A stretch of DNA of 62,728 nt, taken from contig JAFOFB010000004.1 in assembly GCA_017387505.1 (NCBI GenBank), positions 1 through 62,728 on the forward strand, in the 5' to 3' direction. The DNA is from Methanocorpusculum sp. (lineage in GTDB: Archaea > Halobacteriota > Methanomicrobia > Methanomicrobiales > Methanocorpusculaceae). The translations under genes and the position numbers were made by a program. Numbering within the stretch: the first letter of the stretch is position 1; each line of letters opens with the position of its first letter. Positions 32,851 through 35,846 of the stretch are shown here, piece by piece. Below the pieces are notes generated by a model, which saw only the letters and a list, made by a program, of their open reading frames with translations, was not told the origin of the DNA and ran no database searches.

Positions 32851-33267
32851 TCTTCACTTTATTGGAATGGCACAATAAGGCATGGAGTCATCCATGCTCA
32901 ATTAATTTTTCCTCGCCCGTGATTTCGGGTTTTCTGTATTTTGTTTTGTGAAGAGGTTTTCCTTTTTCGAGTATTTTTCTGATTAGATATTTTTCTGCAG
33001 CGATGCATACTTGAAGTAATATTTTATGGCGCGCAGTTGAAGTTAGTGGGTTGTGTGTGTATATTGCAGTCACAAATAAGTCTTGCAATGTTCTTTTTCT
33101 ATCTCAAAAGAGATTTCTTAAATCATATGTTGCGGGTGTGGTTCTGATTTTGGAATATTTTGACATTATTTGTGTTGTTTCAAAATTCTGGCGTTTTATT
33201 GTTCATAATATCATTTTTGGATTTATTCTATAAGATAAGTGACTGATATTTTCGATTAGGAGTGTAG
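32851..33267. other. AT-rich gene-free gap before the surface-protein pair
   Basis: These 417 bases hold the terminator of the upstream gene and no convincing coding region. The stretch from about 33000 is markedly AT-rich, with many T runs and TTTT-containing words, unlike the rest of the window. Short open frames exist on both strands (for example 32888-33088 minus), but they lack ribosome-binding sites or family resemblance. A TATA-like TTCTATAAG near 33227-33235 and a TAGGAG site just before 33268 serve the dockerin protein. Confidence 0.5.
32880..32910 (+). terminator. hairpin plus T-run terminator after the small basic gene
   Basis: GCATGGA (32880-32886) pairs perfectly with TCCATGC (32891-32897) around GTCA, and a run of five T ends at 32910. 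A second small CCCG/CGGG hairpin with T-rich tail follows at 32916-32934. Confidence 0.65.
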
Positions 33268-35196
33268 ATGTCTTTGATGTTTCGGAAATCTGATATCTTA
33301 AAGACGGTTGTTTGTCTTGCTTTGATTATTGTATTGTTCTCTGCGCCTGTTTGGGCTGATGCCGTGTCTGATTTTACTTCTTTGGAGCAGGCTGTAAATG
33401 AAGGAGGAACACAGACCATTTTGATAAGTGGAGATATTGAGATGGGCTATCTTTCTATTCCCAAAGGTGCAGATATAACTCTGAAGCCGGAAGGAAAATC
33501 TGTCACACTTTCATTTAACACTCCTCCAAGTGTAAATGAACAGATAAAGTCTGAATGCATCTATGTACGCCAAAACAGTAATCTCACCCTATCAGGAAAT
33601 ACAGGATATACACTAACGATTAAAGGTTCTGAAATCTCAGGACCTCTTATTGCCAACATTGGAAAACTCACTCTTGAATCAGGAGCAGTTATAACATGTC
33701 ACACCTCAACATCAACATCAGCGGGAGTGAAAAATAAAGGCGTCTTCATCATGAACGGGGGTGAGATATCTCACATGTCAGGAAAATTAGGCGGTGCAGT
33801 ATCAGTGATTGATGGTGGTTCATTTATCATGAATTCCGGTATCATCACAAAAAATATCGCAAATAACGGAGCGGGTATTTATCTTTCTGATGGTTCTGTT
33901 TCTATAAATGGTGGAAGTGTTTCTCAAAATAATGGATATGATATTGAAGTTGTTGGAAGAAATCCACTTACATCCTCAATTTCGATTTCAGGGGAGGCAG
34001 TTATATCCTCAATTCATTTCCAAAATGGAAATCTAGTCCCGGTAATCCAGGCAGATTCTAAATTCTCTGGAGAAGTCAAAGACATAAGTTATGAAAACTA
34101 TGTCCCAAAAACAAAAGCTGTAGATTTCCAATCATCTAAAGCAGCACAGAATCTCCAAAACAAATTCCATATCGCAGACAAAGACTACTGTCTTGTACCA
34201 TCAGGAAATTACCTGATTATTGAATCCGCTCCTGACTTTCAATTTGCTATTGATAATCCAACAAATATCATCATCCCAAAATATCCGATAAAAATCCCTG
34301 TCTCACTTGAAGTGACAAACGGAAAAGTCAGCATGATAGTTGTCACATTAACACTCTCTGATTATAGCGGAAATCAAGTTCAAAGCATGTCCTATGATTA
34401 TAATCTCAAAGATGGTGTTAAATTTGATGTAATCAGAAAAGAAGGAAACACTCTAACGCTCTCAACAGGAACAGACATCACACAAAGTATTGAAGACCTA
34501 CTTACTCTCACCATATCAGATGCTGACCTGGCGCCTGGAGAATATACTGTAACTCTGGAAATTGAAAGCTCAGTCTCGAATACAGAAGACTACACAAAAT
34601 ACCCAACGCAAACTCTCAAAACCACAGTAAATGTTGTCCCGCTTATCTTAGCCGAAACAGCAAACACCAACGGAGCAGACAAATTAGGTACACCTGTCTG
34701 GTCATTCAAGCAGAAAGCCTCAGTCACATATGTCATATCACCATTCGACGCATCTTTAGAAAAGAAATGGCCTGCTGTATCAAGACATGCATCTCCAGAC
34801 TACAGTAACACCGCATCAGAACTGACAGAAGTCAAAGTTTACAAATCAACAGCCGCCTATGATTCCGCAAACCAAAAATCAAATCAGTGGATTGAGGCTT
34901 CAAGCACAGTCAGCAAAAATACTGACGGCACAATTAAATTCAACCTCGCAACCTCAGATTCAGATGCAAAGTGTTTCAAAATAGTATTCACCGGACGAAA
35001 AGTAGGTGACGTAGTTGAAGGAACAGGAGACATAGACAACGTAAACCTATATGATGTGGACATGATTCTCCACGCGGTTGTTGAACCTGAACTCTACATC
35101 AAGCCCGAATGGAGACTTTATGCTGACACTGATTCAGATGGCAAAATCATGTTAGCCGATGCAATGAACGCCTTTAACTTCATCAAAGGATACTAA
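33268..35196 (+). CDS. secreted beta-helix surface protein with C-terminal dockerin
   Basis: This 642-residue exported protein begins with a signal peptide (hydrophobic core about 12-28, likely cut after VWA). Residues ~95-235 show short repeats of the type NKGVFIMNGGEIS, GGSFIMNSGIIT and DGSVSINGGSVS, which indicate a right-handed beta-helix like that of polymorphic adhesins. Two beta-sandwich regions follow. The C-terminal ~58 residues form a dockerin: a degenerate first calcium loop (GDIDNVNLYDVDMILHAV, about 586-603) and a canonical second one (DTDSDGKIMLADAMNAFNFI, about 620-639) with Asp at positions 1, 3, 5 and 12. The next gene encodes a cohesin-like partner 2 bases away. It should be held at the cell surface. 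Confidence 0.8.
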   Translation: MSLMFRKSDILKTVVCLALIIVLFSAPVWADAVSDFTSLEQAVNEGGTQTILISGDIEMGYLSIPKGADITLKPEGKSVTLSFNTPPSVNEQIKSECIYVRQNSNLTLSGNTGYTLTIKGSEISGPLIANIGKLTLESGAVITCHTSTSTSAGVKNKGVFIMNGGEISHMSGKLGGAVSVIDGGSFIMNSGIITKNIANNGAGIYLSDGSVSINGGSVSQNNGYDIEVVGRNPLTSSISISGEAVISSIHFQNGNLVPVIQADSKFSGEVKDISYENYVPKTKAVDFQSSKAAQNLQNKFHIADKDYCLVPSGNYLIIESAPDFQFAIDNPTNIIIPKYPIKIPVSLEVTNGKVSMIVVTLTLSDYSGNQVQSMSYDYNLKDGVKFDVIRKEGNTLTLSTGTDITQSIEDLLTLTISDADLAPGEYTVTLEIESSVSNTEDYTKYPTQTLKTTVNVVPLILAETANTNGADKLGTPVWSFKQKASVTYVISPFDASLEKKWPAVSRHASPDYSNTASELTEVKVYKSTAAYDSANQKSNQWIEASSTVSKNTDGTIKFNLATSDSDAKCFKIVFTGRKVGDVVEGTGDIDNVNLYDVDMILHAVVEPELYIKPEWRLYADTDSDGKIMLADAMNAFNFIKGY

Positions 35197-35198
35197 GC

Positions 35199-35846
35199 AT
35201 GAAACTAAAAATCATATCACTTATCCTTCTCTTATCTCTTCTCCCGTGCGGAGTCCAGGCAGGCTCGTTTGTGATTGACACAGCAGGAATCTCTGCAGAG
35301 GCTGGCGAGACTGTACAGGTTCCGGTCAAAGTCTTCGGGGCTGATGATTTATCAGGCTATCAGCTTCTGATAAACACAGGAAAATCACCGTCTGCTAAAA
35401 TATCAGTCAATGCAGAATCCGCCTCGGACATAACTTACTCTGATGACACAGGGATTCTCATCTGGGCCGGGGCAATGAGAGGAGAAACAATAAACGGAGA
35501 TAAGACACTATTTCTGCTCGATGTAACTTTGAATACCAAATCTCCTGCAACCTTATCTGTATCAGTCACTCAGACATTTGAAGAAACAGTCCCTGCAGTG
35601 CAGGTAAAAAATTATGCAGGATATGAAGCAGTCTTAAAGATTGGAGAAAACATCGGGGGCGGAAAAGATGTATCTTCTGATGTCCCTTTAAATGAAAATA
35701 CACAAAGACCTGTGGATAAAGAAACTCCCAAACACCCTTCAACTCCATCGAAAACAGAAAACGGAATTTCGATTCCTTATTGGATTCTGATTGTTCTTGC
35801 ATCAACAGCACTTGCGGCTATTATAATTATTACAAAAAAGAGATGA
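35199..35846 (+). CDS. membrane-anchored protein with a cohesin-like domain
   Basis: This 215-residue protein has a signal peptide (about 1-21), a beta-sandwich domain (about 23-150), a Pro/Thr/Lys linker (about 160-188), and a C-terminal transmembrane helix ending in a KKR stop-transfer tail. The domain starts with ISAEAGETVQVPVKVFGADD, the typical opening of cohesins, followed by LSGYQLLINTG and a glycine-rich DTGILIWAGAMRGE strand. With the dockerin-bearing protein encoded 2 bases upstream, it is best read as the docking receptor. The cohesin call is based on pattern, not on a search. Carbohydrate degradation is not implied; no enzyme is encoded beside it. Confidence 0.75.
   Translation: MKLKIISLILLLSLLPCGVQAGSFVIDTAGISAEAGETVQVPVKVFGADDLSGYQLLINTGKSPSAKISVNAESASDITYSDDTGILIWAGAMRGETINGDKTLFLLDVTLNTKSPATLSVSVTQTFEETVPAVQVKNYAGYEAVLKIGENIGGGKDVSSDVPLNENTQRPVDKETPKHPSTPSKTENGISIPYWILIVLASTALAAIIIITKKR

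Follow-up and report, generated by a model that had tools for sequence, protein, structure and literature searches.

Adjacent genes for a divergent dockerin protein and a membrane-anchored cohesin protein in Methanocorpusculum: a candidate split surface adhesin

By what means gut methanogens attach to hydrogen-producing partners or to surfaces is, to our knowledge, an open question, and two adjacent genes of Methanocorpusculum sp. raise it at a single small locus: could one gene encode an adhesive head and the other the membrane socket that receives it? The genes lie on contig JAFOFB010000004.1 of assembly GCA_017387505.1, and the window analysed here is this whole contig, 62,728 nucleotides long, in an assembly of 1,425,001 bases and 24 contigs that is 83.5% complete. 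Open reading frame 1 (ORF1; 33268-35196, + strand, 642 amino acids, ATG start, TAA stop) is followed on the same strand by ORF2 (35199-35846, + strand, 215 amino acids, ATG start), with a spacer of two bases between them (35197-35198), and the coordinates agree with the adjacent pair described in a first-pass annotation of this DNA. The reading favoured here, at a probability of about three in four, is that the pair constitutes a split surface adhesin, in which a cohesin-dockerin joint that depends on calcium would fasten the head to the membrane.

Both genes are retained together in two metagenome-assembled genomes of Methanocorpusculum from the goat gut, G018 (RGIG2143, goat colon; contig G018:C7) and G002 (RGIG1678, goat cecum; contig G002:C30); G, C and L numbers are our labels for genomes, contigs and loci. 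The features of the two genes are listed below, with residues given in amino acids (aa) and with models obtained from AlphaFold2 (AF2).

33268..35196, + strand: ORF1, predicted secreted beta-helix / X-module / dockerin protein, 642 aa; orthologs in G018 and G002
33268..33360, + strand: predicted ORF1 signal peptide, about aa 1-31 (end assumed); hydropathy peak at residue 10
33361..34239, + strand: predicted right-handed beta-helix of ORF1, aa 32-324, presumed adhesive head; repeat pattern, and PF20585 in the G002 ortholog only
34240..34650, + strand: X1 beta-sandwich of ORF1, aa 325-461
34651..34980, + strand: X2 region of ORF1, aa 462-571, from X1 to the dockerin; ortholog identity (aa 461-571) 68%/57%, low-confidence AF2 model
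34981..35193, + strand: divergent dockerin of ORF1, aa 572-642; profile searches, alignment, hhalign, conservation
35125..35160, + strand: canonical calcium loop of dockerin repeat 2, D620 to D631; sequence and ortholog invariance
35199..35846, + strand: ORF2, cohesin membrane-anchor protein, 215 aa; orthologs in G018 and G002
35199..35261, + strand: predicted ORF2 signal peptide, about aa 1-21 (end assumed); hydropathy, and an AF2 helix at 2-13
35262..35648, + strand: cohesin domain of ORF2, aa 22-150; profiles, hhalign and a sub-threshold PF00963 match
35649..35771, + strand: linker of ORF2, aa 151-191; residues 149-191 without secondary structure in AF2, with a predicted local distance difference test score (pLDDT) below 50
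35772..35843, + strand: predicted C-terminal transmembrane anchor and basic tail of ORF2, aa 192-215; hydropathy and AF2

Family membership of the ORF1 tail and of ORF2

Both tandem F-hand repeats of the ORF1 tail align with canonical dockerins. Loop 2 (D620-D631) has the 12 residues of a canonical EF-hand loop and the complete pattern D-x-D-x-D-G-x-I-x-x-x-D, whereas the alignment of the degenerate loop 1 retains the first and last Asp, has lost the ligands between them and carries a 4-residue insertion, in agreement with the one degenerate and one canonical loop noticed in the first-pass annotation. The classical dockerin form, in which both loops bear calcium ligands, is not found in this tail, which, judged from its residues, is a divergent dockerin and not a classical one. 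The combination of a degenerate loop 1 and a complete loop 2 is common to all three orthologs, among which D49, D51, D53 and D60 of the dockerin are invariant; since both loop states are kept in all three, they represent a lineage trait rather than recent damage.

The membership of this tail in the dockerin family was established by profile. When the three window-type dockerins were compared with nine other dockerins, hhalign gave 88%, and a profile built from other dockerins, without window-type rows (A7), had ORF1 as its sole match in the window's own genome at E values up to 10 (9.8e-4), which also answers the proposed search of the rest of the genome for further dockerins. A profile made from the orthologs only returned six matches in PDB up to E 10, four of which were dockerins, the best at E 0.01. 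ORF1 alone gave no dockerin match in PDB by phmmer, and the AF2 model of its X-dockerin half left the dockerin unmodelled.

In the case of ORF2, the same approach led to the cohesin family, and the fold agrees in part. Three window-type cohesins aligned with eight others at 94% in hhalign, and the corresponding profile of other cohesins, also without window-type rows (A8), had ORF2 as its sole match in the window's own genome (4.8e-6). The best PDB relative of an 8-row cohesin profile (A3) was 2xdh, a cohesin of Archaeoglobus fulgidus (E 2.8e-4), and cohesins made up three of the five PDB matches of the ortholog-only profile up to E 10 (best E 0.025); ORF2 alone gave nothing in PDB by phmmer. 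In a Foldseek search with the model of this domain, the top 26 rows all came from cohesin or cohesin-dockerin entries. The remaining parts of ORF2 also follow the architecture first proposed for it, with a signal peptide, a linker and a C-terminal anchor around the cohesin: hydropathy revealed one stretch at the N terminus and another at the C terminus, the latter peaking at 2.39 at residue 194, and residues 194-214 are helical in the AF2 model.

A crossed hhalign control gave 0.6%. One dockerin and one cohesin were found in the assembly with the profiles lacking window-type rows, and the two are adjacent, so that the pair is self-contained, as had been supposed, as far as an assembly of this completeness reaches. 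Chance resemblance was ruled out by these single whole-genome profile matches together with the crossed control.

Conservation and a candidate cell-surface joint

The comparison with the goat-gut orthologs indicated that both proteins are conserved unevenly along their length. The ORF1 orthologs share 67.6% (G018) and 51.3% (G002) identity with the window protein by tblastn, and dN/dS, the ratio of nonsynonymous to synonymous substitution, was 0.26 for ORF1 and 0.19 for ORF2 against G018; against G002, synonymous sites are at or near saturation. The dockerin is the best-conserved domain of ORF1 (83% in G018, 69% in G002) and the cohesin that of ORF2 (86% and 65%), with the ORF2 membrane helix next (83% and 58%), while the head (67% and 48%) and the linker (46% and 17%) drift. 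That the dockerin and the cohesin are best kept is the pattern expected from mutual interaction, though it is no proof of one.

Several results weigh against the domain assignments. The Pfam model PF00404 detected no dockerin in ORF1 at E values up to 10, in a search whose filters discard most matches above E of about 0.1; PF00963 matched ORF2 below its threshold (14.8 vs 24.1 bits, E 0.033); at E 0.001, neither model matched anywhere in the window's own genome; and NCBIfam returned nothing in ORF1 or ORF2. In the fold comparison of the cohesin model, unrelated rows were near in Z, and, as regards the identity of the head, Pfam gave no PF20585 match in ORF1 itself or in its G018 ortholog. Pfam and NCBIfam by themselves would have dismissed the pair, and the check with dockerin and cohesin hidden Markov models suggested in the first-pass annotation had a divided outcome, negative with Pfam, where the dockerin had no match and the cohesin a sub-threshold one, and positive with profiles of other family members.

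These unmet cut-offs, the degenerate loop 1 and the commonness of beta-sandwich folds would suit a different explanation, in which the ORF1 tail, though derived from a dockerin, would serve as a C-terminal cap stabilised by calcium and would have no cohesin partner, ORF2 would be an ordinary Ig-like surface protein, and a shared surface-protein operon would be all that connects them. Such a cap is, however, quite improbable, considering that the dockerin and the cohesin are precisely the best-conserved domains, that the profile tests and the crossed control support both families and that the leading Foldseek rows of the cohesin model belong without exception to cohesin or cohesin-dockerin entries.

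Under the split-adhesin reading, ORF1 would be exported, with a head that is probably a beta-helix, a stalk of beta-sandwich type and the dockerin at its C terminus. ORF2 would likewise be exported, would stay in the membrane through its C-terminal helix and would expose the cohesin at the cell exterior by means of a flexible linker. With calcium bound in loop 2, the dockerin of ORF1 would plug into this cohesin, and the head would thereby be held non-covalently at the cell surface. The two genes, two bases apart, are probably co-expressed. ORF1 has a hydrophobic stretch at its N terminus, which no later part of the protein approaches (best mean over 19 residues past residue 40, 1.25). The pair is also small and testable, since it offers two soluble domains, one predicted interaction and calcium as a possible switch.

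As for the head, its repeat pattern, together with a borderline match in one of the three orthologs, suggests that it is probably beta-helical, and it is on this same basis that an adhesive role is presumed: the G002 protein matched PF20585, a 'pectate lyase-like adhesive domain', at 24.0 bits, just under the cut-off of 24.3. In the first-pass annotation, attachment to partner cells or protozoa was put forward as a possible use of the pair. The G018 ortholog gave sub-threshold Pfam matches to Wzt_C and, at 543-553 and not within the dockerin, to an EF-hand. The X1 beta-sandwich was considered as a second true cohesin and set aside, with scant support in its sequence. Were X1 a highly divergent cohesin, ORF1 might act as an adaptor and assemble head to tail, each dockerin entering the X1 of the next molecule, into a surface filament of which ORF2 would anchor the first unit only, an arrangement that we regard as highly unlikely.

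Dockerin-cohesin loci in the genus and the order

Within the genus, four of 25 genomes have dockerin matches, and these four also have the cohesin matches, though the profiles used were themselves seeded there; for the cohesin count, 20 of the 21 other genomes are listed without a match, and G006 had none in a separate search with P0002. Pfam models alone detected dockerins in three genus genomes (23 listed) and cohesins in two (22 listed), all among the same four. Three genus genomes (G018, G008 and G002) contain other dockerin-cohesin clusters. In a row on G018:C4 stand the end of a dockerin gene, a pair of cohesin genes and a dockerin protein of 1566 aa with GLUG repeats. On G008:C120, two dockerin genes, of which one has a GLUG match, accompany a cohesin-anchor gene, beside which a 258-aa protein (L010, 1466-2239) is related by profile to X1 of ORF1 (E 1.9e-5). 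On G002:C55, two cohesin genes precede a 3487-aa dockerin protein, and a second protein of this contig, 2851 aa long, ends in an identical dockerin; these giant open frames (L084, 35438-45898; L085, 55127-63679) look as if different cargos shared one plug.

Across the order, 102 of the 199 Methanomicrobiales genomes had a PF00404 dockerin match at E 0.01, 95 of them above the cut-off, and 51 had a PF00963 cohesin match, 41 of them above it. The A3 cohesin profile gave 24 matches in 20 of the 199 genomes, at 22 loci. At 19 of these, the immediate neighbour on the same strand is a dockerin gene, which lies upstream at 18 loci (16 from the cohesin re-scan; L052 and L053, absent from the re-scan, were read by hand) and downstream at one (G002:C55). 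At the other three, one gene lies between (G036), the dockerin was found only in the same ORF (G055, 13 kb fetched) or the locus is at a contig edge (G195). Adjacency was scored with a dockerin profile iterated on the same loci, which come from related species and are not phylogenetically independent. Of the 20 carrier genomes, G000 and G151 have no PF00404 place and the other 18 have between 1 and 16 each, and since these genomes measure about 1.4-3.2 Mb, chance adjacency would be rare.

This distribution bears on whether the two domains of the window are each other's partners. It could be that both are real and mainly bind elsewhere, the dockerin reaching cohesins of other cells or ORF2 receiving dockerins of partners, so that the proteins would link cells in trans. 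In anaerobic methanotrophic archaea (ANME), dockerin and cohesin pairing has been suggested by Chadwick et al., in the available part of PMC9012536, to serve outer-layer attachment and possibly bacterial interaction, and cross-pairing is possible in those related genomes that have several dockerin and cohesin genes. However, the sole cohesin and the sole dockerin found in the window's assembly are adjacent and jointly conserved, and adjacency is the rule across the examined loci of the order, which fits pairs acting within one cell; a linker in trans is therefore considered unlikely.

It is possible, if on balance doubtful, that adjacent dockerin and cohesin genes represent a general Methanomicrobiales cassette for split, exchangeable surface proteins, made of a head chain and a membrane socket joined by a calcium-dependent plug, with the pair in the window as its minimal form and further distinct pairs in some gut relatives. 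If true, such a cassette would enable a cell in the herbivore hindgut to release its adhesive heads, to exchange them or to share them. The order-wide adjacency also suggests that cohesins could be matched to their dockerins from sequence.

Several Methanomicrobiales loci (L038-L042 and others) resemble the pair in the window in that a dockerin gene directly precedes a cohesin gene whose product has an N-terminal hydrophobic stretch and an anchor-like C-terminal tail. They differ in cargo and in their dockerins, of which Pfam recognises at least that of L038 (25.8 vs 22.9 bits). The cohesin tails of L038, L040, L041 and L042 carry an SPGFG motif, which we take to be PGF-CTERM.

Other arrangements were noticed in other families of the order, where a large dockerin protein adjoins a cohesin-plus-dockerin protein (L051, 7048-12414 and 3230-7063; L044, 3074-6874; L045, 2958-6779). 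The large protein of L051 is a subtilase with a sub-threshold cohesin match, and at L044 and L045 the cohesin-plus-dockerin neighbour matches a macroglobulin-type thioester (TED) domain. Five Methanomicrobiales genomes (G090, G126, G169, G170 and G183) have from 19 to at least 30 dockerin places each, far above their cohesin matches, which number 5 in G090, 1 in G126 and 2 in G169, G170 and G183 not being among the matches listed.

Known systems and genomic surroundings

The closest known counterpart comes from A. fulgidus. According to the available text of PMC9705933, the dockerin of ORF2375 (aa 432-506) binds the cohesin of ORF2376 (aa 29-162) in the presence of calcium, and when the pair was displayed on cells, one of two orientations worked. 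The likeness, drawn from ORF numbers and domain positions, lies in the neighbouring numbers and in the non-cellulosomal archaeal dockerin and cohesin. On the other hand, the window pair, known from sequence, has a different cargo, probably a beta-helix, and a divergent dockerin with a degenerate loop 1. The idea that the window pair would be a distinct use of these modules was not sustained, because dockerins and cohesins are widespread in Methanomicrobiales, adjacency is the rule there and, as far as the available text of PMC9705933 goes, an archaeal pair of neighbouring ORFs with proven binding is already in print. Thus, the kind is already known in archaea; what is new is that a Methanocorpusculum has it in a minimal form, a head plus an anchor, whose dockerin is half degenerate.

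ANME genomes share with the window the possession of non-cellulosomal archaeal modules. The consulted sections of PMC9012536 and PMC5244752 describe many ANME dockerins and cohesins, with attachment of surface proteins and perhaps contact with cells or partners proposed, and the latter tabulates domain counts for ANME and methanogen genomes. In contrast to the one of each found here, these counts run in tens and above (PMC5244752, in the same sections), and scaffoldin-like proteins have up to five cohesins (PMC9012536, likewise); the authors of PMC9012536 call for experiments on which dockerins and cohesins bind each other.

Gut methanogens of other genera have one-chain adhesins in which, from the portions of PMC11532034 at hand, a right-handed beta-helix, a beta-sandwich stalk and a membrane anchor follow one another; there the typical protein unites the three parts in one chain, whereas in the window the chain would be split at the cohesin-dockerin joint, with the anchor on the partner protein. 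The words cohesin and dockerin have 0 occurrences in the main text of that paper, as do adhesins, adhesion, dockerins and cohesins in that of a paper on host-associated Methanocorpusculum (PMC10035134), and among the open-access papers that pair Methanocorpusculum with dockerins, none, judged from its listing, concerns such proteins in that genus. The clostridial cellulosome uses the identical two interacting domain families, but it combines a multi-cohesin scaffoldin with dockerin-bearing enzymes; neither was found in the window's assembly, at 83.5% completeness, and a cellulosome was rejected as a candidate. In the same direction, Pfam detected no carbohydrate-active enzyme domain in ORF1, ORF2 or the four flanking genes tested, which had been anticipated for this pair; by Pfam, these neighbours are a DUF5350 gene, a 130-aa gene without a match, a HAD hydrolase and a periplasmic binding protein.

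In G018, the pair stands between hisG/hisA/hisB (names read from translations) and the 130-aa and HAD genes. The right flank of the pair in the window is like that in G018, with the 130-aa gene and HAD genes, while the left side of the pair is common to G018 and G002. The 130-aa gene is present in 16 of 25 genus genomes, and at most of the fetched loci the pair does not stand beside it; as a marker of empty sites it was discarded, since no clean insertion site emerged and the G002 pair lies on another contig than this gene. In the window, the left flank of the pair differs, with asparaginase/GatE-like genes (read from translations) and the DUF5350 gene (Pfam), which indicates a rearrangement or a misassembly directly 5' of ORF1. 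The break in synteny with G018 and G002 falls in an AT-rich gap (32860-33267, G+C 0.33) 5' of ORF1, whose own G+C of 0.394 is the minimum among the listed ORFs of at least 90 aa in the window (mean 0.467, SD 0.031).
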